From positions 1-21,373 of IMG/VR virus record IMGVR_UViG_3300021957_000377: a stretch of 21,373 nt of DNA; one strand, written 5' to 3'. This stretch comes from a virus. The translations under genes were made by a program, and so were the position numbers. Of the stretch, positions 6,117-20,626 are shown one piece after another (position 1 is the stretch's first letter; every line of letters begins with the position of its first letter). The notes beneath the pieces were generated by a model. It was not told where the DNA came from and ran no database searches. It saw only the letters and a list, made by a program, of their open reading frames with translations.

Positions 6117-6543
6117 CACCACCGGAATCAGATGTTTGATTGGCCATCTTGTACTCACTTGCCAACTCCTCATACACCATTTCCTGATAATCGTTCACAA
6201 CTTGTCTCTGCTTCTTTTCTTTCTTGATACGATTGATAAACGCATGGAAGGCAATTGTTGTGAAGTATGAAAATGGATTGTTACCGGTTTCAATATTAAA
6301 TTTTTTACTCTGTAATGCCGAGAACATCTTAACAATCGCGTCACCAACCATGTCATCCTTATACGAGTAGTTTATGAAGTTGGGAGCATAACTCAAACCT
6401 TTGGCGATTTTGAAAATACTCTCACCAAGCTTGTCCCCTATATCATCTGTACCACTATTGTAGTATTCAATTATATCTTGTGTGAACTCTTTTCCGTTCA
6501 CATAATGTGGTTTTTTATCTTTCTTCGATTTTTTTGATGCCAT
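6106..6543 (-). CDS. 55: late-transcription sigma factor gp55
   Basis: Minimal sigma factor that directs host RNA polymerase to late promoters. The protein has 145 residues from the ATG at 6543. It matches T4 gp55 in layout: YVNGKEFTQDIIEYY near the N-terminus, ESIFKIAKGLSYAPNFINYSY in the middle, then DDMVGDAIVKMF and NPFSYFTTIAFHAFINRIKKEKKQ, the region-2-like core that recognises the -10 box. It is shorter than T4 gp55 (185 aa), and the C-terminus ends QTSDSGGDET without the hydrophobic SLDFLYE-type tail with which T4 gp55 binds the gp45 clamp. An in-frame TTG at 6549 is better spaced from the AGGAG at 6556-6560 and would add two residues. Many TATAAATA boxes in the window fit its presence. 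Confidence 0.9.
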   Translation of the reverse strand: MASKKSKKDKKPHYVNGKEFTQDIIEYYNSGTDDIGDKLGESIFKIAKGLSYAPNFINYSYKDDMVGDAIVKMFSALQSKKFNIETGNNPFSYFTTIAFHAFINRIKKEKKQRQVVNDYQEMVYEELASEYKMANQTSDSGGDET

Positions 6544-8367: not shown

Positions 8368-8380
8368 TTAATGTTAACAA

Positions 8381-8388
8381 CATAAATA
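8381..8388 (+). promoter_or_regulatory. T4-type late promoter box
   Basis: CATAAATA (7 of 8 to TATAAATA) lies 26 bases before the ATG at 8415, a longer distance than at the other late boxes here. A second partial box CATAAATC (8405-8412) lies only 2 bases from the ATG and is less likely. Confidence 0.55.
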
Positions 8389-8414
8389 ATAGCATACATT
8401 GCACCATAAATCAA
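8386..8414 (-). promoter_or_regulatory. sigma70-like promoter for the uvsY operon
   Basis: Read on the minus strand: -35 TTGATT (8414-8409), a 17-base spacer, and -10 TATTAT (8391-8386). The uvsY ATG lies 18 bases beyond the -10, giving a short leader of roughly a dozen bases. The site sits in the 47-base divergent gap and overlaps the plus-strand late box. Confidence 0.55.
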
Positions 8415-8735
8415 ATGAAACTTTTCGAAACTATATTTTACAAACATTTAAACGAGACCAACATGTCAGGAGCTGGCGGTGTTTTTGGTGATACTGGCAG
8501 CATGGGGTTCGGAGGAGCGGTTACCCCTGCCACTGACTTTTACGCACCTGGTGATAGTAGAATACCTAAAGGTGGTGCGAAGAAAGGTTCTGGATTCAAG
8601 CATTGTGACCATTGCAAGACCAAATCCAAGTGCCGCAAGGCTGGTAAATGTTTAGGACAGAACATGAAGGAAAAGAATGGTTCGATACAACCGCTGATTC
8701 CAATGCAACGTAGACCTTTGAACGGCGCGATGTAA
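8415..8735 (+). CDS. Gly-rich Cys-cluster protein with putative capsid-targeting N-terminus
   Basis: Function unknown; 106 residues. The N-terminus MKLFETIFYKHLNET is an amphipathic stretch ending LNE, like a T4 internal-protein targeting peptide with a gp21-type L-x-E cleavage site. It is followed by a Gly-rich linker (about 18-60) and then a compact basic Cys/His cluster HCDHCKTKSKCRKAGKC (63-79), which could bind zinc. The gene is the first plus-strand late gene after the divergent promoter region, with a late box upstream. An internal ATG (residue 17) could start a form without the peptide. The late box supports a virion or late role; zinc binding is inference. Confidence 0.75.
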   Translation: MKLFETIFYKHLNETNMSGAGGVFGDTGSMGFGGAVTPATDFYAPGDSRIPKGGAKKGSGFKHCDHCKTKSKCRKAGKCLGQNMKEKNGSIQPLIPMQRRPLNGAM

Positions 8736-8738
8736 ATA
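8731..8738 (+). promoter_or_regulatory. T4-type late promoter box
   Basis: TGTAAATA (7 of 8 to consensus), 5 bases before the ATG at 8744. It overlaps the last codon and stop of the preceding gene (ATG TAA). Confidence 0.55.
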
Positions 8739-8743
8739 AGTGC

Positions 8744-9244
8744 ATGACTTCTCCACAAAAGGCCAAGGGCAATGGGTTCGAGCGCATCATTGCTAAACAT
8801 CTTTCCAAAATATTTGATAGTAATTTCACACGAGTTCCAACTAGCGGGGCCATGACAGGTGGTATGAATGCTCATGTGTTAGAGAAGTTAACAGACTCAC
8901 AGAAGTTGCTACTCGAGGGAGATATCATTCCGCCTGACCACCTTTACAACATGAAGATTGAATGCAAGGCTCATAAGAACTTTTCATTCGCGAAGCTCTT
9001 TTCGAGAAACAAGCAGTTGGATGATTGGATCACACAGGCGTGGAGTGATGAAAAGGTTTGGTTTTTGATATTTAAGATAAACAACCAAGGCACGCACCTA
9101 TGTTTTGGTCGCGACGTTTTCAACAAGTGTGATGAATTGAAGAATCGGAACTATCTGGTTTATAATAAAGACATGTACATCACCAGCATGGACAATTTCT
9201 TTGAACAATACAAACAGATTTTGTTGCAAATTTGCACTAAGTAA
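8744..9244 (+). CDS. PD-(D/E)XK nuclease, Holliday-junction-resolvase-like
   Basis: Small endonuclease of the restriction-enzyme fold, 166 residues. The motif set fits the fold: GNGFER with E13 in the first helix, LEGDII with D60, and IECK with E73 and K75. The downstream FSFAKLF and DDWITQAW resemble the resolvase-like subgroup (RecU/Hjc and phage resolvases), where a patterned Thr/Ser-rich loop (VPTSGAMTGG, 31-40) precedes the active site. T4 uses gp49 for branch cleavage before packaging; this protein could play a related part, which is inference. A homing or repair nuclease is an alternative. A late box lies 5 bases upstream. Confidence 0.75.
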   Translation: MTSPQKAKGNGFERIIAKHLSKIFDSNFTRVPTSGAMTGGMNAHVLEKLTDSQKLLLEGDIIPPDHLYNMKIECKAHKNFSFAKLFSRNKQLDDWITQAWSDEKVWFLIFKINNQGTHLCFGRDVFNKCDELKNRNYLVYNKDMYITSMDNFFEQYKQILLQICTK

Positions 9245-9258
9245 TACACAATATACAC

Positions 9259-9840
9259 ATGCGGTTTATCGATTTAAACAATCATGGCCTACGTGTGCTG
9301 AACTTCGAGTATATTTTTATCGATGCATACAAACACATAGTGAATGACCTGTTCATGTACGACAAGCATCATGATTTGAATCTCAGGTCCCAAGACACGA
9401 AGCGTATATATTATTATCACATGATAAAACACGTGTGCGATGTAGTAGTGTCAAGTGGTAGCAACAACAGAATCATTGTTTACTATAGTGAGAAAGACAT
9501 CAAATGTGATTTCAAACAATGTGTAAATAATAGAACACGAAAAGGAGCTAAAAAAGACACACAACCGGATTTTCGGTTGTTCATGACAAGATTCTTCAAA
9601 CAAGTAAAGACTGTGTTACCAATAAAGGTTTTCCAGTCACCGGTGAAATTCAACACGTTCGTACAATATTACAACACCAATAAAGGCAAGTATATGGAAT
9701 TGATCAACATGATGAAACAGAGTAAACCGGTACCAAGTAACATGGAGAAGTTCAAGAAATTCACAAGTAAATACAAACTCAATTATCTTGACAAACACTA
9801 CGTAAATAACGTGAAGATCAAGTGCATGATGTATAAATAA
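9259..9840 (+). CDS. hypothetical phage protein
   Basis: I do not recognise this 193-residue protein. It is basic and Tyr/Lys-rich. It has an alpha/beta look at the start (FEYIFIDAYKHIVNDL, then SNNRIIVYYSEKDIKCDF) and a Lys-rich C-terminal half (MEKFKKFTSKYKLNYLDKH). The pattern of a hydrophobic strand followed by an acidic residue (FIDAY, VYYSEKD) could suit a nuclease or PIN-like fold, but no full motif set is visible. It starts 14 bases after the nuclease gene without a clear Shine-Dalgarno site or late box, so it is probably co-transcribed. Its last codons (Tyr-Lys-stop) form the next late promoter box. A perfect 7-bp inverted repeat lies inside it. Confidence 0.8.
   Translation: MRFIDLNNHGLRVLNFEYIFIDAYKHIVNDLFMYDKHHDLNLRSQDTKRIYYYHMIKHVCDVVVSSGSNNRIIVYYSEKDIKCDFKQCVNNRTRKGAKKDTQPDFRLFMTRFFKQVKTVLPIKVFQSPVKFNTFVQYYNTNKGKYMELINMMKQSKPVPSNMEKFKKFTSKYKLNYLDKHYVNNVKIKCMMYK
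9561..9580 (+). repeat. short inverted repeat (hairpin) inside coding sequence
   Basis: ACAACCG (9561-9567), loop GATTTT, CGGTTGT (9574-9580): a perfect 7-bp stem with a 6-base loop. No T-run follows, so it is not a classic terminator. It may be chance or an RNA processing or pausing element. Confidence 0.4.
9832..9839 (+). promoter_or_regulatory. T4-type late promoter box (perfect)
   Basis: TATAAATA, 8 of 8, 8 bases before the ATG at 9848. The box is made by the Tyr-Lys-stop codons (TAT AAA TAA) that end the preceding gene. Confidence 0.75.
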
Positions 9841-9847
9841 GTATATC

Positions 9848-10342
9848 ATGACTAAAGGTTTTGTAAATTCACTCCAGCAAGCACAAAAAAGATACATCAA
9901 TTCACAAGCAAATGTGGTGGTGGAATCAAACAAAACGTCCAATCTCATGAACGAAGTGTTTGGTAAGATCAGAAAGGCTGCCAACAAGATAGACAGGGTG
10001 TATCAACGAACAAAGAATAGTGGTGATGCTCTCGGTTCCATAGCCAGAGAGTACAAACCAACAGAAAAGGAACCGGAGCAACAGGACCCTAACAGTATAT
10101 TCGCTCCTCTACCAGGTAACAACCAACAAACACAGGGCCAAGATCAAGACACGAGCACACAACAGAATCAAAATTCCAGACGACCAACAGAAGATGTTGA
10201 GGATGATTGGGAGGAATATTTAGAGCCTGGGTGGAGTAAGATGGACACCGAGACTAGGTCGTTCTTTGACGATGATTTTCGAAAATTTGTACAGTACAAG
10301 ATGAAAGAAGCTAATTTGAAAAAAGCAGGAGCAAAATTATGA
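9848..10342 (+). CDS. hypothetical late protein, Gln/Pro-rich linker
   Basis: Function unknown; 164 residues. The basic helical N-terminus (about 1-65, with KIRKAANKIDRVYQRTKN) is followed by a Gln/Asn/Pro-rich low-complexity linker (about 70-115) and an acidic to mixed C-terminal domain (EDDWEEYLEPGWSKMDTETRSFFDDDFRKFVQYKM). A possible cleavage-type motif VVE-S occurs at about 24-27, but the N-terminus is less like the targeting peptides of its neighbours. A perfect late promoter precedes it and the next gene overlaps it by 4 bases, so a structural or head-core role is plausible but unproven. Confidence 0.8.
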   Translation: MTKGFVNSLQQAQKRYINSQANVVVESNKTSNLMNEVFGKIRKAANKIDRVYQRTKNSGDALGSIAREYKPTEKEPEQQDPNSIFAPLPGNNQQTQGQDQDTSTQQNQNSRRPTEDVEDDWEEYLEPGWSKMDTETRSFFDDDFRKFVQYKMKEANLKKAGAKL

Positions 10343-10683
10343 AATTTGTAAACATAATAGAAGAAAAGTTAAAGGTTTTGAACGAACAAGAACCTCCACC
10401 AGAAGATACAGATGTACCACCAGAAGATGAGGTCACCGAACCACAATCAACTGAGACTCCGTTGAGTGAATTACCGGATGAAGGAGATGGTGAAGATGAT
10501 ACATCAAAGCTCAAGGTGGATTATGTAGAGATGATCAGAAAAGCGTTGATCATGGCTCCCAAACATATCGATGATGTCGATTATGCTCGGTTGACCAAGA
10601 TAGTTGACACAGAAAATTTAGAAGAGATGCAAGAGTTGGTGAGCAGAATTGTTCGCAACAACTATCCACATCCTGATTTGTGA
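10339..10683 (+). CDS. acidic late protein with putative capsid-targeting N-terminus
   Basis: Function unknown; 114 residues. It starts MKFVNIIEEKLKVLNEQ, a helix containing IEE-K and LNE-Q, both of the (I/L)-x-E type used by T4 prohead protease. A very acidic Pro-rich segment follows (about 18-55), then a folded-looking helical C-terminus (VDYVEMIRKALIMAPKHIDD onward). The ATG overlaps the upstream stop (ATGA) and has a good Shine-Dalgarno sequence, AGGAG at 10327-10331, 7 bases away. The acidic composition recalls small T4 prohead-core proteins such as gp67, but I cannot show homology. Confidence 0.8.
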   Translation: MKFVNIIEEKLKVLNEQEPPPEDTDVPPEDEVTEPQSTETPLSELPDEGDGEDDTSKLKVDYVEMIRKALIMAPKHIDDVDYARLTKIVDTENLEEMQELVSRIVRNNYPHPDL

Positions 10684-11834
10684 TGAGTGACGGTGATTTG
10701 AGAAATTTGTACGAAAATGTTCGTCGCGGTGCTGAATATGTTGCTCCTCGGCGTGAGAGTGAGTTATACAAAAATGTTTACATGGAGAAAAGTGGTAATA
10801 ATGAACTCAAAGTGTTGTGTAGGAAATTAAACGATATTGGTGACAGGGGCTATCTCTCAGATAGTGACCTTCTATATTTAAATCAATTTTTAGACTCACG
10901 TGCATATTTACCTATGATAATTAGTTACTTGAATGAGAGTAATATAACAGATAAGACGTTGTCAGATAAGAATGCTGTTGATGGTATAACAAATATATTA
11001 CAATCTGCTGGAGTTACTGATAAATTTGTCGATTATCTTGGCTCTCAGATAAGTTTTAATATTTTAGGTAAATCTGGCAATCTACTTGATATCATCTCTA
11101 GTAAGTTGAGTAAATTTAATATATCACGTGATGTTATTGTACGGTTAATGCAATTTGAGGGTACCGAAGGTGGTAGAGGTGTAGGTCAATGTGAGTTAGG
11201 GCTCGCGACGATATTTAACGATGTTACTGTTCGTGATAGTCATGGAGATCTTAGTTGGAGAGGTGAATATCTAGAAGTGAAAGGTAGTAAGGCTAGACTC
11301 GGTGGTAGAGATGTACCGCTTACAGGGTTTGAGCAAACGATTTTAGGTTCTTTTGCAATCCAACACGATTTACCATTTAGTACTATAAAGAGTGGTGGTA
11401 ATAAATACAATATCGTTGACACATTAATTGGTTTAAGTAAAGTTGGTGTGCCACCGGCTCAGTTGAAAGCTGGTGTAATTGAATTTGTTAAGAAGTGCTA
11501 TCCGAACTCAGGCAATATAACTATACCAGGCTCGTTTAAAGACAAAAATAAGCTGAGAAACTACTTAGAGACATGTTATTTCACTCACTACGCATTAACA
11601 GAGGGAGTTGAACATTTTATCTTTATTAATACAGGAACATCTCTAAAGGGTGGTTCAGAAATTAAAACACCTACTGCAAACTTTGGTAAGTATATAATAT
11701 TTCAAACACAAAACATACCTAAACTGGTAAATGCTGGTGCTATTGGTGCGAGCACAATAACATCAGCCAACATTTACCCTAGCCTCGGTGCACCAAATGT
11801 TAGTCAAGTACCATTAGAAGGAGCGATGGAATAA
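10683..11834 (+). CDS. probable PD-(D/E)XK nuclease-like protein
   Basis: A 383-residue protein that I do not recognise as a named family. A central segment reads GVGQCELGLATIF, then GDLSWRGEYLEVKGSKARLGGR. E171, D189 and the E198-V-K200 pair are arranged as in PD-(D/E)XK nucleases (E in a helix, D, then ExK on the next strand, followed by a basic ARLGGR). The N-terminal 160 residues look helical and the C-terminal 170 mixed. Codon use is richer in T- and A-ending codons (GAT, AAT, GGT, TTA) than in both neighbours, suggesting recent transfer. The ATG at 10683 overlaps the upstream TGA by one base; an in-frame GTG at 10680 is possible. No Shine-Dalgarno sequence is seen. Confidence 0.65.
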   Translation: MSDGDLRNLYENVRRGAEYVAPRRESELYKNVYMEKSGNNELKVLCRKLNDIGDRGYLSDSDLLYLNQFLDSRAYLPMIISYLNESNITDKTLSDKNAVDGITNILQSAGVTDKFVDYLGSQISFNILGKSGNLLDIISSKLSKFNISRDVIVRLMQFEGTEGGRGVGQCELGLATIFNDVTVRDSHGDLSWRGEYLEVKGSKARLGGRDVPLTGFEQTILGSFAIQHDLPFSTIKSGGNKYNIVDTLIGLSKVGVPPAQLKAGVIEFVKKCYPNSGNITIPGSFKDKNKLRNYLETCYFTHYALTEGVEHFIFINTGTSLKGGSEIKTPTANFGKYIIFQTQNIPKLVNAGAIGASTITSANIYPSLGAPNVSQVPLEGAME

Positions 11835-11835
11835 A

Positions 11836-13164
11836 ATGAACTTCAAAGCATACAACAGAGTGATAGAGGAAGGTGGCGCATATGGCCACATGATGAACGT
11901 GCATGAAGATTACACTTTACAGTTTGAAGACCTGCAACGCATCATCAAACAAGCACTGACCGGTGGAATCAAAGGAGAAATCAAAGAAAAGACCGATGGA
12001 CAAGCGTTAGCAGTGAGCCACCGTGCAAATCGTGTGATATTTGCACGCAACAAAGGGCATTACAAAGCATTTGGTAAAAACGCCATCCGAGGCGCCAAGG
12101 GCATTGCAGAATTTTTTGGAGAACATCCGAATGACAACGTGAAAGAAGCATTCACATTTGCAGCAAAGGACCTAGAAAAAGCCATCCTGGCTTTGAGTGA
12201 CAGGCAGAAGCAGTTGTTGTTCGCGGACGGCAAAAGATGGATCAACATTGAGATAATCTGGCCGGCAACCGTGAATGTGATCCCATACAACCATGAATTG
12301 ATCGTGTTGCACAATTTCCGGGAATATGATGAAGATGGTAACACGTTAGATGGTGATTTTGATGAATATGGTCGCATGATGGCGGGTATGATTCAGCAAG
12401 TGAACCAACATGTACAAGATAAGTTCACGATCACGAGCATGCCATTGATGAAGTTACCACAGGTCAAGAATTTTGAATCCGGAATGGGTGAATACATTGG
12501 CACATTGAATGGCTTGATGAATCAACATGGTTTGAATCCGAGTAACAGTGTGGGAGATTACTGGGTGAGTTACATGAGCGGGGTAATACAAAACGGAGCA
12601 CGAGAGTTTGGTTACAATGTACAAACGGACACACTGAAGCGCATCGCTTACAGATGGGCGTTCAAGATGCTCACACCAGGTAAGCGACCAAAAGACTACA
12701 ACTCACTAGCACTCAGTAGGTTGCCAGACTTGAAAGGTATTGTTGATAATAAAGAATTTATACAATGGATAGGAGCCACAGAACGTGGAGGTGAACTCAA
12801 GACCCACTACAATAACATGATCGAACCACTTAAGGCGTTGTTCCTAAAATTAGGAGTTGAATTGAACAACAATATAACTAACCTCTTGACACTAAATCCG
12901 TCACAAGCTGTACAAGAGATCCGGCAAGGTATAGAGGAGGTTACACGCGAGATACAAGCAACTGGAGATTTAGCGTTGATGGACAAGTTGAACCATGAAT
13001 TGAAAATGATCAACAAGTTGGGTGGTCTTGACAACATAGTACCTACCGAGGGTTTGACCTTTACATACACTCCAGATGGAGAAACAGAACCCAGAATATA
13101 TAAATTCACTGGGATATTTGCACCCGTGAATCAGATACTGGGTAGCTTAAAATTTAGTCGTTAA
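11836..13164 (+). CDS. RNA/DNA ligase-like nucleotidyltransferase with putative capsid-targeting N-terminus
   Basis: A 442-residue protein carrying motifs of the covalent nucleotidyltransferase superfamily (ligases, capping enzymes). Motif I is K52-T-D-G55 in KEKTDGQALAVS, K52 being the expected AMP-accepting lysine. A motif III-like strand is RWINIEIIWP with E139. Near the C-terminus, TEGLTF (E405, G406) and YKFTG (K423) resemble motifs IV and V. The large insert between motifs III and IV is unusual. It starts MNFKAYNRVIEEGG, where IEE-G matches the T4 prohead protease rule (I/L)-x-E then G/A/S, so the enzyme may be packaged. AAGGAG lies 12 bases upstream. It could equally be an inactive structural relative. 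Its 3' end overlaps the next, convergent gene by 11 bases. Confidence 0.7.
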   Translation: MNFKAYNRVIEEGGAYGHMMNVHEDYTLQFEDLQRIIKQALTGGIKGEIKEKTDGQALAVSHRANRVIFARNKGHYKAFGKNAIRGAKGIAEFFGEHPNDNVKEAFTFAAKDLEKAILALSDRQKQLLFADGKRWINIEIIWPATVNVIPYNHELIVLHNFREYDEDGNTLDGDFDEYGRMMAGMIQQVNQHVQDKFTITSMPLMKLPQVKNFESGMGEYIGTLNGLMNQHGLNPSNSVGDYWVSYMSGVIQNGAREFGYNVQTDTLKRIAYRWAFKMLTPGKRPKDYNSLALSRLPDLKGIVDNKEFIQWIGATERGGELKTHYNNMIEPLKALFLKLGVELNNNITNLLTLNPSQAVQEIRQGIEEVTREIQATGDLALMDKLNHELKMINKLGGLDNIVPTEGLTFTYTPDGETEPRIYKFTGIFAPVNQILGSLKFSR

Positions 13165-13429
13165 GGTCTTTTGTTATCTGATTTAATTTCTTGTCAGCCT
13201 TGTTGTATATCTTTTGCACACCAGGAGTAGGTTTTTTACCAGCCATCTGTTGACGTTCTTCTTCTTGTTTCAACTTAATAGCAGCTGCAGTTTCAGCTCC
13301 CTCATCCTCTTCATCATCTGCAGCCTCTTCAACTGGTTTTGATGCTTCAATTTGTGCCATTCTAGACTCATATACTCTCAGATATGCCTGTTCCAACAGG
13401 ATATTTTCATCTTTTGATGTGTTTGTCAT
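13154..13429 (-). CDS. small acidic late protein with putative capsid-targeting N-terminus
   Basis: Function unknown; 91 residues, on the minus strand against its neighbours. The N-terminal region includes ENILLEQAYLRVYESRMAQIEASKP, with LLE-Q and VYE-S as candidate prohead protease sites. An acidic Glu/Asp/Ala run (about 38-50) is followed by a Lys/Gln-rich C-terminus (KPTPGVQKIYNKADKKLNQ). A perfect late promoter on the minus strand lies 5 bases before the ATG, which argues strongly that this is a real late gene although it runs against the block. Confidence 0.8.
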   Translation of the reverse strand: MTNTSKDENILLEQAYLRVYESRMAQIEASKPVEEAADDEEDEGAETAAAIKLKQEEERQQMAGKKPTPGVQKIYNKADKKLNQITKDLND

Positions 13430-13434
13430 GTGAT

Positions 13435-13442
13435 TATTTATA
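13435..13442 (-). promoter_or_regulatory. T4-type late promoter box (perfect), minus strand
   Basis: TATAAATA on the minus strand, 8 of 8, with 5 bases to the ATG at 13429. It lies back to back with a plus-strand box at 13471. Confidence 0.75.
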
Positions 13443-13470
13443 ATAAATGTAGAAAATAACCATATTTAAA

Positions 13471-13478
13471 ACTAAATA
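13471..13478 (+). promoter_or_regulatory. late-promoter-like box
   Basis: ACTAAATA (6 of 8), 6 bases before the ATG at 13485; identical to the box before the Nudix gene. Confidence 0.5.
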
Positions 13479-13484
13479 GGTTGT

Positions 13485-13664
13485 ATGAGTAACTCACATG
13501 ATAGTTTGACAGCTCTTTTTGAGCAATACGTTAGCGAGAACGAAAAGTTCAACGAGAAACAAAATAAAGCCGCCGGTACCCGAGCGAGAAAGGCACTTAT
13601 GGAAATCACTAAACTCTGCAAAGAGCGGAGAAAAGAGATTCAAGAAGCTAAAAATAACAACTAA
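13485..13664 (+). CDS. histone H1-like (Hc1-type) protein with putative capsid-targeting N-terminus
   Basis: A 59-residue protein. Residues 22-57, FNEKQNKAAGTRARKALMEI followed by a KERRKEIQEAKN tail, match from memory the Hc1/histone H1-like family of small basic DNA-compacting proteins known from Chlamydia and Bacteroidetes (typical core: EKGNKAAGTRxRK). The first 20 residues differ from that family: MSNSHDSLTALFEQYVSE ends in LFE-Q and VSE-N, as expected for a T4-type head-targeting propeptide. This suggests a DNA-binding protein packed with the genome in the capsid. It has its own late-like box 6 bases upstream and no Shine-Dalgarno sequence. Confidence 0.75.
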   Translation: MSNSHDSLTALFEQYVSENEKFNEKQNKAAGTRARKALMEITKLCKERRKEIQEAKNNN

Positions 13665-13669
13665 ACCTG

Positions 13670-13677
13670 AATAAATA
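13670..13677 (+). promoter_or_regulatory. T4-type late promoter box
   Basis: AATAAATA (7 of 8), 5 bases before the ATG at 13683, filling the 18-base gap after the histone-like gene. Confidence 0.6.
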
Positions 13678-13682
13678 CTTCT

Positions 13683-14117
13683 ATGCACAACAACACATGG
13701 AAGAAGGAAAGGGATCTCTTATCAGAAGCTTACAACGCTGTAACTGAAACAGATCACGGCAACATCCAAACCGCTCTAGGACCAGATGAAGAAGAGCAAG
13801 AGGATGGTAGTATCAAAAATACAAAAACCGGCGAGACTGTTCACAAGCCTAAAAGCAAAGTAAATGAAGAGATTGGTGACCCTCTTGGTGATGAAGTTGG
13901 TGAGATTCAACCTGAAATAGATGCAGAGTTCACACGTGAGCCTGATGAGGTTGATGCTGAAATCGACTCGCTCAAGAGCCTAATTCTCAACCCACCGGTT
14001 GACAAGATTGAAGAATATGCTCGTCAAGGTCAACTGCATGTTTATGTTGATATGTTGAAGAAGAAGCTTGAAGCAGCAGAAGCTGTGAAGGCTGCAGTAC
14101 GTGGTGAGGCTGAATAG
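13683..14117 (+). CDS. acidic late protein with putative capsid-targeting N-terminus
   Basis: Function unknown; 144 residues, strongly acidic (many Glu/Asp between 30 and 105). The start MHNNTWKKERDLLSEAYNAVTE contains LSE-A, a textbook T4 prohead protease site, and VTE-T a little later. The C-terminal third is helical (VDKIEEYARQGQLHVYVDMLKKKLEAAEAV). Size and charge recall T4 scaffold-core or internal head proteins. It ends 7 bases from the convergent stop of FolE2. A late promoter box precedes it. Confidence 0.82.
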   Translation: MHNNTWKKERDLLSEAYNAVTETDHGNIQTALGPDEEEQEDGSIKNTKTGETVHKPKSKVNEEIGDPLGDEVGEIQPEIDAEFTREPDEVDAEIDSLKSLILNPPVDKIEEYARQGQLHVYVDMLKKKLEAAEAVKAAVRGEAE

Positions 14118-14124
14118 TCAACCA

Positions 14125-15165
14125 TCACCTCAATCCAGTAGTTTCAAAAACATCTCTAGCAACTCCAGCAGAGAACCCACCCTGCACACCCTTCACAATC
14201 ACTGATACAGCGTTGTGACTATGCAAACTCTCGTTATGAGAAGCAACAATCTTAAAGTCCTTAATTCTAGGCTCGTTGTTTAGCTTCTCGTACATCAATC
14301 TCACTGCATCTTCTACAAACTTGAGATAAGATCCATTCAACTCTGCAAAGGCTTGTTCATCCTCTCGTTTGACCATCACCTGTGTCTCTGTCTTTAGTGC
14401 TGCCAGGCATAATTCCTGTACATCCTCGATCCACAACATGTCATCGAATCGAACACTAACACGAGCCACGCTGCGTTGACTGTGTGGTACGGTTGCTCGG
14501 TTGCGATATTTTTCTGCATGTTCACTCAACTCAAAACTACAAGGGCATGCGGATGAATATACAAAGTCAAAGTGTATATATTTTTTAAACTCACCATCCT
14601 TTGTTAAATCTCCTTCGAAAACCACATCATAGTATTGAAACCCCTCCAAACCACTTCGCAGACTCTTCTGCCGGATTGGGTATGATATCTTCAACATTAT
14701 CCTTGAATCAAAACACATCAGATTCTTTTTATATGTCTCGAGAACATCTTTGATCTTGTCGATGTTGAACAATTCATCCTTGTGATTGTAAAAGCTTCGC
14801 ATGATTCGTGACATGTTGATACCCTTCTTATGTGCTTCCAAGCTAACACTACCGGTTACACTTGTTTCAAGCTCGATTGTCTTACCACTTCTCTTTTTAT
14901 ATGTTAATGGTAATCTGAAGTTATGTATACCTACTTGCTGAATCGCAACCGGGGCACCTTGAATCAGACTTGACGGACCGTTTTGTAAATCAGGGAGTGA
15001 CGAGATATATTTTTTATCAGCATCTATCTTTGTATCGTACACTCTTATGGGTGATTCGTAACCCTTGCTATACTCTTCTCCCATTATTTCCTTGGCGATG
15101 CTATCCTTCTCACCAGTAAGTTCATCATCACCTAACCATTCATAGTTGTTCGATTTATCAGTCAT
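14125..15165 (-). CDS. folE2: GTP cyclohydrolase FolE2 (type IB)
   Basis: Converts GTP to 7,8-dihydroneopterin triphosphate, the entry step for both folate and 7-deazaguanine (preQ0/queuosine) synthesis. The 346 residues include the family marks VSLEAHKKGINMSR (107-120, usually GxHMSR, here Asn for His), the metal-binding CPCS (C207, C209) in YSSACPCSFELSEHAEKY, and PHSQRS (227-232). The first 75 residues are a less conserved extension. Since QueD and QueE are encoded nearby, supply to the deazaguanine pathway is the likely role rather than folate. It lies alone on the minus strand, divergent from the QueD/QueE operon, with a sigma70-like rather than late-type promoter. Confidence 0.93.
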   Translation of the reverse strand: MTDKSNNYEWLGDDELTGEKDSIAKEIMGEEYSKGYESPIRVYDTKIDADKKYISSLPDLQNGPSSLIQGAPVAIQQVGIHNFRLPLTYKKRSGKTIELETSVTGSVSLEAHKKGINMSRIMRSFYNHKDELFNIDKIKDVLETYKKNLMCFDSRIMLKISYPIRQKSLRSGLEGFQYYDVVFEGDLTKDGEFKKYIHFDFVYSSACPCSFELSEHAEKYRNRATVPHSQRSVARVSVRFDDMLWIEDVQELCLAALKTETQVMVKREDEQAFAELNGSYLKFVEDAVRLMYEKLNNEPRIKDFKIVASHNESLHSHNAVSVIVKGVQGGFSAGVARDVFETTGLR

Positions 15166-15172
15166 ACGTCAT

Positions 15173-15201
15173 ATTATAGATACTTTACACGTGTAATTCA
15201 A
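15173..15201 (-). promoter_or_regulatory. sigma70-like promoter for folE2
   Basis: Minus strand: -35 TTGAAT (15201-15196), 17-base spacer, -10 TATAAT (15178-15173). Only 7 bases separate the -10 from the folE2 ATG, so the mRNA is predicted to be leaderless or nearly so. Confidence 0.62.
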
Positions 15202-15209
15202 CTTATTAT

Positions 15210-15217
15210 GATAAATA
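15210..15217 (+). promoter_or_regulatory. T4-type late promoter box for the QueD/QueE operon
   Basis: GATAAATA (7 of 8), 7 bases before the ATG at 15225. No other clear promoter is seen on the plus strand until 18610, so this box may drive all seven genes up to QueE. Confidence 0.62.
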
Positions 15218-15224
15218 ATTTAGT

Positions 15225-15671
15225 ATGTCCAAGTTCAATTCATTGATGGAGAGTAATCTCAATAAAACAAATCTACTTCGCATCCGTATCAAACATGATC
15301 CTGCCAACGGTATTGGTGAGATGAATGATTATGTTGGCTATGTACTAGAGGAGGATGGAATGGGCAATGTGGTTGCGATTGTTCCTCAAATGGGTGGTGA
15401 TACTATGTCCTTTGGACCTGGTCAATACACACATGATGATGTACCTTGTGGAGATGACGAGCAACAAGCAGATCCATTGAGTACGTTCAAGAAACACATT
15501 GTCAAACACTTGATTGAGCGTGGTTATCATGACAAGGTCAAAAATCATATGGATGAAATAATTAACGCGAAGGATGTTTCACAGTTGGAAAATCTATTAC
15601 ACGGATGTGGTTGTAATGGTGTTGCTGTATTGAACATGTATAGAGATTTTGTATCAGATGCAACGGTTTGA
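15225..15671 (+). CDS. hypothetical late protein with putative capsid-targeting N-terminus
   Basis: Function unknown; 148 residues. It begins MSKFNSLMESNLNK, where LME-S fits the prohead protease rule. A beta-rich middle (LRIRIKHDPANGIGEMNDYVGYVLEEDGMGNVVAIVPQM) is followed by a helical C-terminus with a HGCGCNG motif (about 126-132), two close cysteines that might bind metal. It is the first gene of the operon and overlaps the nucleotidylyltransferase start by 14 bases. Confidence 0.8.
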   Translation: MSKFNSLMESNLNKTNLLRIRIKHDPANGIGEMNDYVGYVLEEDGMGNVVAIVPQMGGDTMSFGPGQYTHDDVPCGDDEQQADPLSTFKKHIVKHLIERGYHDKVKNHMDEIINAKDVSQLENLLHGCGCNGVAVLNMYRDFVSDATV

Positions 15672-16305
15672 TTCATTGTATGGCTCGCTGTTGACCGAGC
15701 AAGATGAGAATGTTCTCAAGATAGGTATATTTCCTGGCGCATTCAAACCACCTCATGTAGGTCACTACACGACTGCGTATGATGCATGCAAGAACAACGA
15801 TAAGGTCTACATTTTCGTGTCAGACAAGCCGAGACCATTAACCACACAACACAAGGGGAACAAGAAAGAAGTACCAGATTCTGCTAGATATGCCAATATT
15901 CTCAAATCTGACAAATACACAGACCGATTGTTAGGTGTACAAACAGCAGGTGTGGCGAGAATGACAAGCGCGACTGCGTTCCGGTCTGCAATTTCTATTA
16001 AAGACAAAGTAACCATTTCCAAGAACATTCCCGAGGGGGTTGACAGTGACAGAGTCTATGATATCTTGATGAAGAGCAATGATCTTGACAATCCTGGTTA
16101 TGGTCATATCACAGTAGAACAAACCATGGACATCTGGATGCTCTACAAGCCACTACTAATTAATCTCACCGGGATGAATCCAGAAGATATAATAATACAA
16201 GTATCCAAACCAAGTCCTGTGAAAGACACATACGACTTGGTTGATCAACTTAACAAATCTGAACAAGCGGGTAACATAGGAGTAAGACTTTACGTAGGAG
16301 AGTGA
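15658..16305 (+). CDS. cytidylyltransferase-like nucleotidylyltransferase (NMNAT/CTP-type fold) with putative capsid-targeting N-terminus
   Basis: Transfers a nucleotidyl group to a phosphorylated substrate. It has 215 residues from the ATG at 15658; a TTG at 15649 would add three and is less likely. The fold is marked by KIGIFPGAFKPPHVGHY (21-37) with HVGH (33-36, the HxGH nucleotide-binding motif), and by MTSATAFRSAI (102-112), corresponding to the second ISSTxxR-type motif. The substrate (NMN, a sugar-1-phosphate, phosphopantetheine and so on) cannot be fixed from sequence. The first 14 residues, MQRFDSLYGSLLTE, precede the enzyme domain and end LTE-Q, as in a head-targeting propeptide. 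It sits in an operon with QueD and QueE. Confidence 0.82.
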   Translation: MQRFDSLYGSLLTEQDENVLKIGIFPGAFKPPHVGHYTTAYDACKNNDKVYIFVSDKPRPLTTQHKGNKKEVPDSARYANILKSDKYTDRLLGVQTAGVARMTSATAFRSAISIKDKVTISKNIPEGVDSDRVYDILMKSNDLDNPGYGHITVEQTMDIWMLYKPLLINLTGMNPEDIIIQVSKPSPVKDTYDLVDQLNKSEQAGNIGVRLYVGE

Positions 16306-16730
16306 TGAAGAGATTTGGACGTTACGATAATGACTTTAATGGTCTGTTTGAATGTTACCGACAGGTGAACAGTCTGGTGGTTGAGCGTGAGCTACCCAGT
16401 GCAACCAGACAGCCCACCTCAATAACAACCGGTGATTCATTTCCTGGTATAAAGACTATCAAAGTTTTTGTGCAGCGACCAGGTAGAGGTGCAGATCTGA
16501 CCAATATAATAGATGTGAACAGACTGGGTAGTGATAATGGTGATAATGGTACTGTTATCTCAGGGACTGAAGGAGATAAGATATTCAATGTCACAACCAC
16601 ATCTAAAGGATCACAAATAAAGACTTACGACAATGAAAATAACCTGGAGAATGATTTCGTCACCAACATAGCACCTAGATATGATAGTGAGGCGAGGGAA
16701 CTGGTTATTATACATGTAGAAGAATTATGA
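16305..16730 (+). CDS. hypothetical protein with putative capsid-targeting N-terminus
   Basis: Function unknown; 141 residues from the ATG at 16305, which overlaps the upstream stop by one base (TGATG). AGGAG at 16296-16300 is 4 bases away; a GTG at 16302 would be too close to it. The N-terminus has FNGLFECYRQVNSLVVEREL, with LFE-C and VVE-R as candidate cleavage points. The rest looks beta-rich and Gly/Asn/Thr-rich (VFVQRPGRGADL, NGDNGTVISGTEGDKIFNVTTT). Confidence 0.78.
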   Translation: MKRFGRYDNDFNGLFECYRQVNSLVVERELPSATRQPTSITTGDSFPGIKTIKVFVQRPGRGADLTNIIDVNRLGSDNGDNGTVISGTEGDKIFNVTTTSKGSQIKTYDNENNLENDFVTNIAPRYDSEARELVIIHVEEL

Positions 16731-16930
16731 AACAACAATTGAGACATGATGAAAAAACACAAACAGTTATATTGTGTTGTGGTAGCAAAAGATGCCCGGA
16801 GTTGAAGATCGAAGACGATCAAGTCACGATAACAGACGATTATGGACAGAAAATCAATATTTCAAAGGAACAGGCATCATTGATACCACAAGCTTTGGAA
16901 ATGTTGAGCGACAAACCAACAGATGCTTGA
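16727..16930 (+). CDS. small Cys-motif protein
   Basis: Function unknown; 67 residues. The core is TVILCCGSKRCPELKIEDDQVTITDDYG: a beta-hairpin-like segment with a CCGxxxCP motif (C17, C18, C23) that might bind metal, followed by a helix (SKEQASLIPQALEML). The start overlaps the upstream stop by 4 bases (ATGA), and the next gene overlaps its end by 8, so translation is probably coupled within the operon. Confidence 0.75.
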   Translation: MKQQLRHDEKTQTVILCCGSKRCPELKIEDDQVTITDDYGQKINISKEQASLIPQALEMLSDKPTDA

Positions 16931-17189
16931 ATTGCTCGCGTGTGTTGGTTTGCATTGGATCATAAAGTATGGTACAATTTTTGATAAACCTCGCAATTTA
17001 ATTAAGATGGTTGGTGTTTTGAGAGAATTACTGAACTGTAGCTTGTGTTTGGGGTTCTGGTGCGGTGTTGTGGTGGGTGCTCTCGTGAATAACATCATCA
17101 TGTACTCATTCGCGAGTGCTGCTTGTTGTTGGTTTGCTGACAATCTAAACAACACACTACAGAGTGTTGAAATAAAGTTGGATAAATGA
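16923..17189 (+). CDS. DUF1360-like small membrane protein
   Basis: An 88-residue hydrophobic protein with two or three membrane segments (about 1-15, 38-58 and 60-75). The motif LLNCSLCLGFWCGVVVG, CxxCxGFWxG, is characteristic of the DUF1360 family found in bacteria and phages; its function is unknown. The start ATG lies 8 bases inside the upstream gene. Why a membrane protein is placed directly before the QueD and QueE genes is not clear from the sequence. Confidence 0.78.
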   Translation: MLELLACVGLHWIIKYGTIFDKPRNLIKMVGVLRELLNCSLCLGFWCGVVVGALVNNIIMYSFASAACCWFADNLNNTLQSVEIKLDK

Positions 17190-17213
17190 TTGTTATGTAG
17201 CTATAATAATCGG

Positions 17214-17804
17214 ATGTATAGTAGCACAAAGATAATTGAATTAGGTAGCTGTGCTTTTAGACAACCTAAAGCGGTCTCACACTGCAGGTTTATTCATGGC
17301 TACAGACTAACAGCGAAATTTTGGTTTAATGCAACCACACTTGATGATAACAACTGGGTTGTTGACTTCGGAGGTTTAAAGAAACTCAAAAGCACACTAC
17401 AAAATCAATTTGATCACACTCTGTGTGTATCAGCAGATGATCCTTATTTACATGCATTTGAGAAACTGAAAGACATGGGTGCAGTAGACTTGAGAGTAAT
17501 GGACGGTGTTGGTATTGAAATGTTCGCTGAATGGTGTCATGGCCAGGCAGACGTTTATGTGAATGAGTTGACTGATGGTAGGTGCAGATGTACCAAAGTT
17601 GAGTTATTTGAACATGAGAACAACTCAGCCATTTACGAATGTGATTTGACTGGTGAATCATTCTCAGAACCGGAACACAAACAACAAGTGGAGACACCAA
17701 CTGAACAAATCAAACCAGATACAGCTGTGTCTGTTAACTCGAACGAACGTAAATTAAAAAACAAGTGGGTTGATGAAAAATCCACCAACGTTTGGGGATT
17801 ATAA
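17214..17804 (+). CDS. queD: QueD-like 6-carboxytetrahydropterin synthase
   Basis: Converts 7,8-dihydroneopterin triphosphate (the FolE2 product) to 6-carboxytetrahydropterin. It has 196 residues from the ATG at 17214; an in-frame TTG at 17190 lacks support. The PTPS-fold marks are SCAFRQ (12-17), HCRFIHGYRL (23-32), VVDFGGLK (49-56) and DHTL (67-70). The usual metal ligands are changed: the first His region reads CAFRQ and the HGH motif reads HGY, leaving H23, C24 and H28 nearby. I recall phage and alphaproteobacterial QueD-like proteins with the same CFRQ/HGY form, so this looks like a subfamily, not decay. About 50 hydrophilic residues extend past the enzyme domain. QueE starts 2 bases after the stop. 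Confidence 0.88.
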   Translation: MYSSTKIIELGSCAFRQPKAVSHCRFIHGYRLTAKFWFNATTLDDNNWVVDFGGLKKLKSTLQNQFDHTLCVSADDPYLHAFEKLKDMGAVDLRVMDGVGIEMFAEWCHGQADVYVNELTDGRCRCTKVELFEHENNSAIYECDLTGESFSEPEHKQQVETPTEQIKPDTAVSVNSNERKLKNKWVDEKSTNVWGL

Positions 17805-17806
17805 TT

Positions 17807-18589
17807 ATGCAAGAAGAACCAACATCATTAGATCTTTCAGAGAGTTTCTACTCTGTACAATGTGAAGGTAACACAACAGGATACCCAGCATACTTTATTC
17901 GATTAAAATCGTGCAATTTGATGTGCGGGGGAAAGAATGGTGAGTTAATGAAAACCGGAGAAGCTACCTGGTGGTGTGACACGGAAGCTGTTTGGAGAAA
18001 GGGGTTCGAAAAACCATTCTACAAGCTCATACAACAATGGGAACAAGAAGAGATTGATCAATGGATATATAATGGTAGAATACATCTGATATGGACTGGT
18101 GGTGAACCTACAATACCCAAACATCAGAGAGCTATACCAGCTTTTCATGAACATTTGAAGAGTTACGTTAAAGACAAACACGACCTGACGTTAAACACCT
18201 TTGATGAGATCGAAACTAACGGCACTCTCATTATCAAAGATGATTTGTTTGAGATATTGGATCAGATCAACTGCTCGGTCAAGCTAGCTAATTGTGGCAT
18301 GCCAGAAAACCGCCGGATTATCCCGGAGGCACTGGAGAAAATAATGTCTCATAAGAACTACTGGTTCAAATTTGTGATCAGCACAGAGGATTGCTTGAAG
18401 GAGATTGAAAGAGATTTCATCAAACCTTTCAACATACCACATGATCGTGTCATGATGCAACCAGGTCTTGACAGACAAGAAAATTTCCATGAACGTACAC
18501 GATTCACGTTAGAGATGGCCAAGAAATATGGTTACATTGGATTGTCCAGGCTGCATGTCAGTGCATGGGACAAGCTTACAGGTGTGTAG
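17807..18589 (+). CDS. queE: QueE-like 7-carboxy-7-deazaguanine synthase (radical SAM)
   Basis: Radical-SAM enzyme that contracts 6-carboxytetrahydropterin to 7-carboxy-7-deazaguanine. It has 260 residues from the ATG at 17807, 2 bases after the QueD stop; a TTG at 17792 is unlikely. The marks are SFYSVQCEGNTTGYPAYFIRL (the SxQGEGxxxGxP region), the cluster cysteines C36, C40 and C57-D-T, TGGEP (97-101), EIETNGT, and SVKLANCGMPENR for the SPK loop. The cluster is CX3CX16C instead of the usual CX3CX2C, with about 14 extra residues (including Gly and two Trp) between the second and third Cys. It closes the operon. Confidence 0.92.
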   Translation: MQEEPTSLDLSESFYSVQCEGNTTGYPAYFIRLKSCNLMCGGKNGELMKTGEATWWCDTEAVWRKGFEKPFYKLIQQWEQEEIDQWIYNGRIHLIWTGGEPTIPKHQRAIPAFHEHLKSYVKDKHDLTLNTFDEIETNGTLIIKDDLFEILDQINCSVKLANCGMPENRRIIPEALEKIMSHKNYWFKFVISTEDCLKEIERDFIKPFNIPHDRVMMQPGLDRQENFHERTRFTLEMAKKYGYIGLSRLHVSAWDKLTGV

Positions 18590-18609
18590 TTGAACAAGTT
18601 GTAATCATC

Positions 18610-18617
18610 AATAAGTA
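18610..18617 (+). promoter_or_regulatory. weak late-promoter-like box
   Basis: AATAAGTA (6 of 8 to TATAAATA), 5 bases before the ATG at 18623. It is placed like the other late boxes but is the weakest match. Confidence 0.4.
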
Positions 18618-18622
18618 GTTAC

Positions 18623-19330
18623 ATGCGATTAGCAATATCAGGCACTGCAGGTCAAGGCAAAACAACACTGCTCAACGAATTCCTAGAAAATTGGAAGATG
18701 TACACAACTCCGGAGAAGAGCTACCGGAGTTTGCTCACAACAGACAACCATAGCAAGAACACAAGCAAGGAAACTCAATGGAGTATACTCAATTTGATGC
18801 TCGATCAATTGGAACAGAGCAGCAGTGATGATTTTGTCATCTTTGATAGATGTCCTCTCGACAATCTCGTGCATACCATGTGGGCATACCACAAGAATGT
18901 AGGTGACATCGATGAATTGTTTGTGGAGAAGTGTATACCAATCGTGAGAGAGAGTATGCGGTTGTTAGATATCATATTCATGATTCCAATAACTAACGCC
19001 GCACCAGCGGATATTCAAGACGATGGCGTTAGAGAGACAGATGCTGATTATATAGCAGAGATTGACAACTTCTTCAAGGCTATGTACACAAACTGGAGTA
19101 AAGATGATCAGCGATTTTTTCCTAAGGATGACCGGACGGCTATCATCGAAATCTTCGGTACAACAGAAGAGAGAATCAAATTGTTAGGATTTTATGTCGA
19201 TGATAGTGGTAAGATGTTTGGAGAAGACGACTCACTAGTGGATACTAACACATTATACGACCAGTTCGGTATACCAGTGGCTGCGGATGCTAGTGAAGGT
19301 GCAGAAGATAACATCAAAATATATAAATAA
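18623..19330 (+). CDS. P-loop ATPase/kinase, AAA_28 (NadR kinase-like)
   Basis: A 235-residue nucleotide-binding protein. Walker A is GTAGQGKTT (7-15), directly at the N-terminus as in small-molecule kinases. ETQWSILNLMLDQLE, then DDFVIFDRCPLDNLVHTMWAY with the DRxPxD pattern, match AAA_28, the family holding the ribosylnicotinamide kinase part of NadR and other nucleoside kinases. The tail after about residue 185 is acidic and may be a separate segment. The substrate is unknown; nucleoside, nucleotide or nicotinamide riboside are options. The gene ends Tyr-Lys-stop, forming the next late box. Confidence 0.78.
   Translation: MRLAISGTAGQGKTTLLNEFLENWKMYTTPEKSYRSLLTTDNHSKNTSKETQWSILNLMLDQLEQSSSDDFVIFDRCPLDNLVHTMWAYHKNVGDIDELFVEKCIPIVRESMRLLDIIFMIPITNAAPADIQDDGVRETDADYIAEIDNFFKAMYTNWSKDDQRFFPKDDRTAIIEIFGTTEERIKLLGFYVDDSGKMFGEDDSLVDTNTLYDQFGIPVAADASEGAEDNIKIYK
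18706..18731 (+). repeat. short inverted repeat inside coding sequence
   Basis: AACTCCGG (18706-18713), 10-base loop, CCGGAGTT (18724-18731): a perfect 8-bp stem near the 5' end of the ATPase gene. No T-run follows. It could form an mRNA hairpin that affects translation or decay, or be chance. Confidence 0.4.
19322..19329 (+). promoter_or_regulatory. T4-type late promoter box (perfect)
   Basis: TATAAATA, 8 of 8, 7 bases before the ATG at 19337. It is formed by the terminal Tyr-Lys-stop codons of the ATPase gene. Confidence 0.75.
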
Positions 19331-19336
19331 ACATAT

Positions 19337-19591
19337 ATGAAAAACTTCAACGACACATTAGAGAATATCTCCGAGAATTTCGGATTACATAAAACCGTTG
19401 TTCGTGAGAGATTTCCACGAAAATTGCAACTCAGTGAGGAGTTTGTTGAGAGTTTTAAAAAAGAATTTCAATCACAAGTTGAACCAACATACACAGAGGA
19501 TACAGAAGGTCAACGTGTGGTTGCAAGAGAAGCTCGCAATCCTGCACAAGTTTTAAAAGAATTTCAAAAAGCTCTTAAGTTTTTGATTTAA
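19337..19591 (+). CDS. small late protein with putative capsid-targeting N-terminus
   Basis: Function unknown; 84 residues, charged and largely helical (LQLSEEFVESFKKEFQSQVE, PAQVLKEFQKALKFLI). The start MKNFNDTLENISENFG resembles the targeting peptides of its neighbours, with ISE-N as a weaker cleavage candidate. It has a perfect late promoter and no Shine-Dalgarno sequence. Its 3' end overlaps the convergent next gene by 17 bases, so the two transcripts are complementary at their ends. Confidence 0.8.
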   Translation: MKNFNDTLENISENFGLHKTVVRERFPRKLQLSEEFVESFKKEFQSQVEPTYTEDTEGQRVVAREARNPAQVLKEFQKALKFLI

Positions 19592-19862
19592 TTTTTATCT
19601 GATCCAAGCTTTTTTTCAAACGATCACCCTTTTCTGCATTGGTTGTATCGTTTGTCACTTCATACTCTACATCACTACCTGGTATGTTGTGTTTATTTTT
19701 TACTTTGCTGCTGTTCTCTTCCGGTCTAGACTTTATCTTCTTGATAACACCTTCTGACCCATGATGCTCACAGTCTGGGTTGATATTTCTTATTTTATCA
19801 CCCACTTTGACGTCCTTTTTAAGAACTTCTGCTATAAACTCTCGAAATGATGGAAGCTTCAT
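19575..19862 (-). CDS. KOW/SH3-like small protein with clear capsid-targeting N-terminus
   Basis: A 95-residue protein. The first 12 residues, MKLPSFREFIAE, closely match the T4 internal-protein targeting peptide MKTYQEFIAE, including the EFIAE end cleaved by the prohead protease. After it comes VKVGDKIRNINPDCEHHGSEGVIKKIKS (about 17-45), a KOW/SH3-barrel-like segment, then a polar linker and VEYEVTNDTTNAEKGDRLKKSLDQI. I recall similar VGDKVRxINP...HHGSEG proteins in other marine T4-like phages, without known function. It has minus-strand late boxes just upstream. Virion packaging is inferred from the peptide. Confidence 0.82.
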   Translation of the reverse strand: MKLPSFREFIAEVLKKDVKVGDKIRNINPDCEHHGSEGVIKKIKSRPEENSSKVKNKHNIPGSDVEYEVTNDTTNAEKGDRLKKSLDQIKIKSKT

Positions 19863-19867: not shown

Positions 19868-19875
19868 TATTTATT
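19868..19875 (-). promoter_or_regulatory. T4-type late promoter box, minus strand
   Basis: AATAAATA on the minus strand (7 of 8), 5 bases before the ATG at 19862. An overlapping second box GATAAATA (19879-19872) lies 9 bases away. Both are formed by the Asp-Lys-stop codons that end phoH and the bases just after. Confidence 0.6.
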
Positions 19876-20626
19876 TATCTCCAAGTTTTCTCACGATAAA
19901 TTTTAACATTTCACTACGCATTATGTCTTTCTCAGTAAACTTGAAACAAAACACCCCGTTGCTCTCGCTCTCTGTATCATTGAACGTGTTGTAAATATCC
20001 TGGAACCCACTCTTGCTTATATCAGTCTGTAATGTATCTCCTATGACTAACATTTTACTATCCTCACCAAATCTCGTGAGGATGGTGATCAACTCGCTCC
20101 GAGTCAGGTTTTGTGCCTCATCAACTATGACAACACTATCCTTGAATGTCAACCCTCTCACATAATTCACAGGAACCGCTTTGACAGTACCTGTTGAGAA
20201 CAGTGTGGATATTGTGGAGCTCGGTATCAATTCACTAAGTTTCTCTTGCAATGGTAATGTCCATGGGAGAAATTTATCATCCACTTCTCCCGGGAGGCTG
20301 CCCATGCTCTTACTAGCACTCTCAATGATGCTCCTGATGTACACAACCTCATCAACACGGTGACTTTTGAGCATGTTCAGTGCCACATAAGCCGCGCAGT
20401 ACGTCTTTGCTGTACCAGCTGGCCCATCTATAAATGCAATCTTAGTATCGTTATTGTAACATAACTCGACAAAACTATTATGTACATCGGTTAGTTGGTA
20501 TTTGGTTGTGATTTTAAAGGTACGATCCATGGTGTTCCTGGTGATTATATCTGGTATCTCTTCAATCTCAGTATCCTTGCGGGGTTTAGTTGTAGTCCTT
20601 TTATATGATGATTTGCGTTTTGCCAT
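19871..20626 (-). CDS. phoH: PhoH-like ATPase
   Basis: Predicted P-loop ATPase common in marine phages; its biochemical role in phages is unsettled. It has 251 residues. Walker A is GPAGTAKT (68-75), VVYIRSIIESASKSMGSLPGE (95-114) fits the family block PxVEAGExLGFLPG, Walker B is VVIVDEAQN (165-173), and GDTLQTD (196-202) fits the GDxxQxD motif. The basic first 20 residues (KRKSSYKRTTTKPRK) may contact nucleic acid. It has a late-type box upstream and is divergent from the GT-A gene. Confidence 0.93.
   Translation of the reverse strand: MAKRKSSYKRTTTKPRKDTEIEEIPDIITRNTMDRTFKITTKYQLTDVHNSFVELCYNNDTKIAFIDGPAGTAKTYCAAYVALNMLKSHRVDEVVYIRSIIESASKSMGSLPGEVDDKFLPWTLPLQEKLSELIPSSTISTLFSTGTVKAVPVNYVRGLTFKDSVVIVDEAQNLTRSELITILTRFGEDSKMLVIGDTLQTDISKSGFQDIYNTFNDTESESNGVFCFKFTEKDIMRSEMLKFIVRKLGDK

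Follow-up and report, generated by a model that had tools for sequence, protein, structure and literature searches.

The window (the whole stretch of DNA analysed here; 21,373 nt, IMG/VR record IMGVR_UViG_3300021957_000377) is a 21.4 kb piece of an uncultured marine T4-like virus of bacteria, a myophage, and encodes gp46, gp47, gp55, UvsW, a UvsY-like protein and PhoH. A near-identity search of phage records with the window gave no match. Between positions 8,415 and 19,862 lies a block of genes whose products mostly begin with a short leader ending in h-x-E (h, hydrophobic residue), reminiscent of the capsid-targeting sequence (CTS) of the T4 internal proteins (IPs) I-III and Alt. A sequence-only reading of the window had proposed that this peptide serves here as a portable tag on unrelated late proteins, enzymes included. 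All 11 open reading frames listed in that reading begin where it placed them, and h-x-E falls within the first 9-22 residues of each. Naming genes by their first nucleotide, with a minus sign for the reverse strand, a short N-terminal leader ending in L/I-x-E was found in 19862-, 15658, 8415, 11836, 10339, 13683, 13429-, 15225, 16305 and 19337 (Table 1). The N-terminal segments of 9848 and 10683 end in MNE and YME, an L/I-x-E ending being seen in their relatives only (counterparts of 9848 end in ILE/G, LLE/G, LIE/G or FME/S; the slash follows the last residue of the leader); these look like two further tagged genes of the block, with longer leaders.

The leaders had been described as amphipathic, which holds only to a moderate degree (their hydrophobic moments span 0.19-0.72, against a background with a median of 0.28 and a 90th percentile of 0.51). 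At the places of IPIII residues 4 and 7 (PMC9026906), hydrophobic or aromatic residues are found in 19862-, 15658, 11836 and 10339, and not in 8415 (H at position 7), 13683 and 15225. The N-terminus of 13485, which had been counted among the tagged proteins, reads ...FEQYVSE/N, and an Hc1 histone-like domain starts at its residue 6 (Pfam PF07432, E=7e-17); therefore, this N-terminus belongs to the fold. The Hc1 histone H1-like gene (13485-13664, +) sits among the late genes. Both 13485 and 7972, a false match to the pattern described below, were discarded as leaders.

Table 1. Leaders, late-promoter-like sequences and associated features in the window.
Feature	Position	Strand	Supporting observation
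Leader MKLFETIFYKHLNE/T of the 8415-8735 product	8415..8456	+	tblastn with G022 capsid protein; L081 capsid arm
Capsid-arm mimic SGAGGVFG...TDFYAPGDSRIPK, basic linker, LIPMQRRP end	8457..8735	+	Conserved in G001-G007 and distant G020 154675
Probable long leader (36 aa) ending NLMNE	9848..9955	+	N-termini of positional counterparts
Leader MKFVNIIEEKLKVLNE/Q of acidic Pro-rich protein	10339..10386	+	Leader 55% vs. body 19% identity among relatives
Conserved 35-aa N-terminal segment ending ELYKNVYME, before exchanged payloads	10683..10787	+	
Leader MNFKAYNRVIEE/G of KxDG (ligase-like) protein	11836..11871	+	Jumbo-phage homologue with comparable start
Candidate type II leader MTNTSKDENILLE/QAYLRVYE/S	13391..13429	-	Fits D/N-x-x-LLxE-AY pattern of other genomes; late promoter 13435-13442 (-)
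Candidate type II leader MHNNTWKKERDLLSE/AY	13683..13727	+	Leader 79% vs. body 35% identity among relatives
Short leader MSKFNSLME/S	15225..15251	+	MS(K/R)FN..hE retained in relatives
Leader MQRFDSLYGSLLTE/Q of predicted nucleotidylyltransferase	15658..15699	+	Seven distinct leaders in 8/8 members end h-x-E
Leader MKRFGRYDNDFNGLFE/C	16305..16352	+	Leader 75% vs. body 25% identity among relatives
Leader MKNFNDTLENISE/N	19337..19375	+	Seven distinct leaders, E retained; G018 homologue ...YNFIME
IP-like leader MKLPSFREFIAE/V	19827..19862	-	Relatives: FDTLVNE or FNKHIQE at equivalent place
Late-promoter-like CATAAATA	8381..8388	+	Before 8415
Late-promoter-like TATAAATA	9832..9839	+	Before 9848
Late-promoter-like TATAAATA	13435..13442	-	Before 13429-
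Late-promoter-like AATAAATA	13670..13677	+	Before 13683
Late-promoter-like GATAAATA	15210..15217	+	Before 15225
Late-promoter-like TATAAATA	19322..19329	+	Before 19337
Late-promoter-like GATAAATAAATA	19868..19879	-	Before 19862-
gp55 late sigma factor	6106..6543	-	phrog_234, E=4e-34

Ten IMG/VR relatives sharing window proteins (G002, 88 kb; G004, 98 kb; G006, 82 kb; and seven shorter contigs) were examined at full length, with genes called. Among these, the leader was conserved and the body diverged in 10339, 13683 and 16305; in 15658, 19862-, 8415 and 19337 the body was better conserved than the leader, and the E was nonetheless retained. The opening 32-40 residues encoded at the 10683 locus were 64-82% identical among G000, G001, G003, G004 and G006, and in the pairs of G000 with G003, G005 or G006 BLAST similarity ended at this N-terminal stretch. 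Since the diverged or exchanged bodies (10683-11834, +, and orthologues) retain, by eye, a GD...ExK motif, they may not be unrelated proteins but nuclease-like relatives that have diverged fast. M15-peptidase-like and P-loop-kinase-like proteins are also among the tagged products of the relatives. In addition, 13683 and 13429- fit a candidate second leader type (D/N-x-x-LLxE-AY); genes of G018, G020 and G021 have type II-like starts, MNKDSHLIFEAYKTVVTES or MKTKDQMLLEQAYNKILNE, and in G018 the type II core was 36x denser at N-termini than within proteins (7 vs. 2 hits, p=1e-6). The sequence-only reading had suggested seeking the peptide in related phages, and h-x-E leaders were indeed found in the relatives, in independent contigs and in cyanophages. 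The cytidylyltransferase of cyanophages begins MKxFSAFLxE/A at 80 loci, with F7, L8, E10 and A11 fixed, and beside these positions the residue before E alone varies (T/N/I/S/V), as would be expected from cleavage at L/I-x-E. Homologues of this enzyme in HTVC008M and Cr30 have no clear leader, and that of C48C1 has MKNFSQYLLE immediately upstream of its annotated start; therefore, the leader is separable from the fold.

A tblastn search of the window with the capsid protein of contig G022 gave a match at 8364-8570, in the 8415 gene (E=4e-5). The match was strongest over the arm lying after ...WCLxE in the capsid protein, and the 8415 leader ends in KHLNE at the same place; the L081 capsid arm after xE is likewise a near match to the 8415 product. 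T4 gp23 loses a 65-residue propeptide after FLTE-65, and the capsid proteins of this family would be cut at their own xE. Since KHLNE aligns with that xE, the h-x-E of one tagged protein coincides with the putative head-protease site. The 8415 product comprises the capsid protein's mature N-arm only, with no HK97 fold, and a basic, Cys-rich tail, and this copy can serve as an internal marker of the protease cut position. Separately, a 182-aa 'major head protein' of S-SM1 (152805-153353) seems to contain a gp23 N-arm-like stretch (GPNAGYDPVL), so copies of the capsid arm may be widespread. Searching with the portal protein of G006 reached L055, in which portal, S77 protease, scaffold and capsid genes lie in order, and from the L055 capsid protein another 80 capsid loci were reached; the S77 protease was present in L055 and in 8 of 10 further relatives. 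A walk via topoisomerase returned just the same contig. It could be argued that the leaders dock proteins on the prohead, or on some other late structure, and stay uncut, the proteins then remaining in the virion or falling off rather than being injected. Targeting and processing are separable in T4, where an E-to-D change permits targeting and prevents cutting (PMC9026906), which is compatible with such docking. However, the E is the most constant feature of the leaders and yet dispensable for T4 targeting, and 8415 aligns at a processing site; we therefore consider uncut docking unlikely.

We also asked whether the motif is commoner than chance. A loose regular expression, composed after the leaders had been seen, matched 31 of 144 N-termini (21.5%; one protein per family, window plus ten relatives), compared with rates of 7.7% for internal windows, 8.3% for C-termini and 6.1% for N-termini after shuffling; the h-x-E leader is ~3x commoner at protein starts than inside proteins in the window clade. 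In the window alone 11 of 31 genes matched (P=1e-5 at the 7.7% rate), including false matches in gp46 and the UvsY-like gene (7972-8367, -). Since the expression had been chosen on the window clade, it was frozen and then applied to independent contigs that had been reached via the capsid or portal protein and not via the motif. A smaller excess was found in G021 (18.4 vs. 9.2%, p=0.0025) and G020 (18.5 vs. 12.3%, p=0.006); G011 gave 15.2 vs. 7.2% (p=0.02), the excess in G018 was weak (13.8 vs. 10.0%, p=0.04), and G022 showed no N-terminal excess. Narrow type I and type II patterns were significant in only some genomes. These figures bear on the possibility that the leaders are ordinary N-terminal helices of each fold, h-x-E being a by-product of amphipathic helix composition. 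This is true of 13485 and of the hits in gp46 and 7972-, and internal helices match so short a motif at the 7.7% rate. It is at odds with the threefold N-terminal excess, with leaders conserved without their bodies and vice versa, with one leader standing before different payloads, with capsid-arm homology that begins at xE, and with the enrichment of the leader among S-CREM2 virion proteins described below. As a general account of the block it is, in our view, quite unlikely.

T4-type late promoters had been noted before most of these genes, on either strand, and NATAAATA was found before 6 of the 11 genes (8415, 13429-, 13683, 15225, 19337 and 19862-). It lies 13-34 nt upstream of these six and of 9848, the first gene of the run 9848-10339-10683-11836. 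In the three long relatives NATAAATA preceded 28 of 57 tagged genes (49%) vs. 35 of 213 untagged genes (16%; background ~1.4%), where the p of 1e-6 overstates independence since the three genomes are related. The pattern was switched to NATAAATA from exact TATAAATA after the first result, in which the exact form failed to distinguish tagged genes from untagged ones. With NATAAATA upstream and gp55 encoded in the window, the tagged genes are predicted to be expressed late.

Published virion proteomics of related cyanophages places leader-bearing enzymes in virions. A putative cytidylyltransferase, T4-GC190, was detected by mass spectrometry in S-SM1 virions (Sullivan et al. 2010, PMC3037559), and the S-SM1 protein begins MKKFSAFLNE/AERSF; S-SZBM1 virions likewise contain a cytidylyltransferase (PMC9146016). 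The virion kinase of S-CRM01 begins MISFDQFLSE/K. For S-CREM2, 217 annotated proteins of at least 40 residues were compared with the detected list (PMC10665884, Table 3). A strict IP-like leader, composed after part of the S-CREM2 genome had been seen, occurred in 6 of 28 detected non-structural proteins, as against 1 of 165 undetected and 0 of 24 structural ones (p=4e-5). These six were a SAM hydrolase, a Cas9-like nuclease, an APH-like kinase, the cytidylyltransferase and two unknowns. The expression frozen earlier on the window clade, a fairer test, matched 11 of 28 vs. 17 of 165 (p=4e-4). Tagged proteins in the virion are thus documented for cyanophage relatives rather than for the window's own products. 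The authors of the S-CREM2 study themselves raised lysate carry-over and left the packaging of such enzymes open (PMC10665884), and the enzymes could be plentiful proteins of the lysate that persist in the CsCl bands and are irrelevant to packaging. Carry-over would not select leader-bearing proteins, however, and similar enzymes have been reported from several isolates, which makes it very unlikely as an explanation. Within the available portions of the cyanophage virion-proteomics literature, we found no paper tying these enzymes to a targeting leader. The Cas9-annotated nuclease detected in S-CREM2 virions with its IP-like leader is encoded at OR473000 7704-10313 (-).

As to the cargo, the 15658 product carries the GxFxPxHxGH signature of the NMNAT/cytidylyltransferase superfamily (GIFPGAFKPPHVGH) and matches PF01467 (E=5e-5) and TIGR00125 (E=7e-8, starting at residue 22), with all equivalog models far below cut-off; it is a predicted nucleotidylyltransferase. 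In the 11836 product EKTDG, NxE and EG motifs were seen by eye; searches of Pfam, NCBIfam and PDB gave no match, and its AlphaFold model (pLDDT 39) was too poor to use. This protein is a candidate DNA/RNA ligase-like nucleotidyltransferase. Its jumbo-phage homologue begins MKFLKSYEEFLNE, with the leader MKFLKSYEEFLNENLILE/GG. Mel-JY01 (L043 11243-13162) has the 11836-type KxDG domain in fusion with a nucleotidylyltransferase, and the E/GG junction is retained there; in jumbo phage L269 the fusion is with ParB-like and nucleotidylyltransferase domains, and the junction is lost. PADLOC assigned none of eight cargo proteins to a defence family.

Several other features of the tagged proteins and their neighbours were noted. 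In G006 73115-74452 (also in G005 and G007) the leader MKPFKQYYTEQQTLLE runs directly into RRTFLRTLFGGAAAMA, which resembles a twin-arginine signal. Tagged G011 49210, G006 74439 and G005 13410 end in a common basic module (GKSRPGRVKKAGTSCNGSV...WCANMKSGKKK), and within G006 74439 there is another leader-like stretch, KTFRQFYTE. The Cys-rich module CxHCxTxSKCxxAGKCLG is common to 8415-8735 (+) and G006 80668-81009 (-), otherwise different tagged proteins. The window also holds 7-deazaguanine pathway genes, namely FolE2 (14125-15165, -), QueD-like (17190-17804, +) and QueE-like (17807-18589, +), and a QueC-like gene was seen by eye in relatives (G002 41723).

The proposal of a portable T4-type tag on unrelated proteins, enzymes among them, therefore finds support in the capsid-arm homology, the conserved h-x-E, payload exchange, the late-promoter association and the published cyanophage virion proteomics. 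We regard packaging by a cleavable T4-type leader as the best explanation, and as highly probable. The block would be a late-gene island whose products mostly bear a short N-terminal CTS. The leader would dock each protein onto the scaffold core of the growing prohead, a gp21-type (S77) protease would then cut after h-x-E and release the mature protein inside the head, and that protein would be packed with the DNA and probably delivered along with it. We infer docking, cleavage at these sites and delivery. T4 delivers its IPs and Alt with the DNA (PMC9026906); by analogy, entry into the host is likely here too, and the phage probably carries a prepacked protein set into its host.

Several observations weigh against this explanation. 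The motif is short and was defined only after the leaders had been inspected, and cleavage at the leader sites is a prediction. The promoter excess was weak in other genomes (27/128 vs. 95/672, p=0.03), and NATAAATA was not found upstream of the cytidylyltransferase in the 80 cyanophage loci. Detection in virions was in cyanophages, and their enzyme is related to that of the window distantly at best; a tblastn search of phages with P0002 gave no match. Finally, a gp21-type protease and scaffold had been expected elsewhere in the genome; the gp21-gp22-gp23 cassette was found in relatives, but searches for S77 (gp21) and gp23 were empty on the window and its ten closest contigs, which are fragments. 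The head genes of the window clade presumably lie off the searched contigs, and this exact phage presumably encodes gp21.

A broader reading, which we offer tentatively and consider possible rather than probable, is that marine T4-like phages load exchangeable enzymes by means of a packaging code that is open and has two classes of leader (IP-like F..F(L/I)xE and D/N-x-x-LLxE-AY-xx-V-x-E). The enzymes would include a linked nucleotidylyltransferase, KxDG ligase-like, ParB-like and nuclease-like group that acts on the host at entry. Payloads would be swapped behind leaders that stay, a pattern that could be likened to polymorphic effector systems.

Cyanophage proteomics repeatedly finds metabolic and anti-defence-type enzymes in virions, and the authors could not decide between packing and carry-over. 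A signal in the sequence that is linked to the head protease would explain their presence, predict the injected proteins of abundant marine phages straight from genomes, and name candidate effectors of the first minutes of infection. The idea is not wholly new, since a review already suggests the CTS as a route by which T4-like phages incorporate various proteins (PMC9026906); what is described here is an expanded use of it. As with the T4 CTS cut by gp21, the leaders are N-terminal, 10-16 residues long, end in L/I-x-E and belong to late proteins, the IP-like ones have an aromatic residue 6 and a hydrophobic residue 3 places before E, and the leader is conserved while the cargo varies. In T4 the internal-protein leader can also bring foreign proteins into the head. 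T4 has few such proteins, however, whereas ~10 occur here in one 12 kb block, enzymes included, and some leaders here reach 35 aa or belong to a second type (D/N-x-x-LLxE-AY). In phiKZ and SPN3US many head and ejection proteins also shed an N-terminal propeptide after x-x-E (PMC5694885), but those propeptides often exceed 100 residues and end at A-x-E or S/A/G-x-E, whereas the leaders here are short, end in L/I-x-E and occur in a group whose relatives encode a T4-type S77 protease. The cytidylyltransferase/NMNAT-like proteins, SAM hydrolase and kinases of cyanophage virions are likewise enzymes that occur in virions of T4-like phages and carry an IP-like leader, although the enzyme in the window is only a remote relative of theirs.

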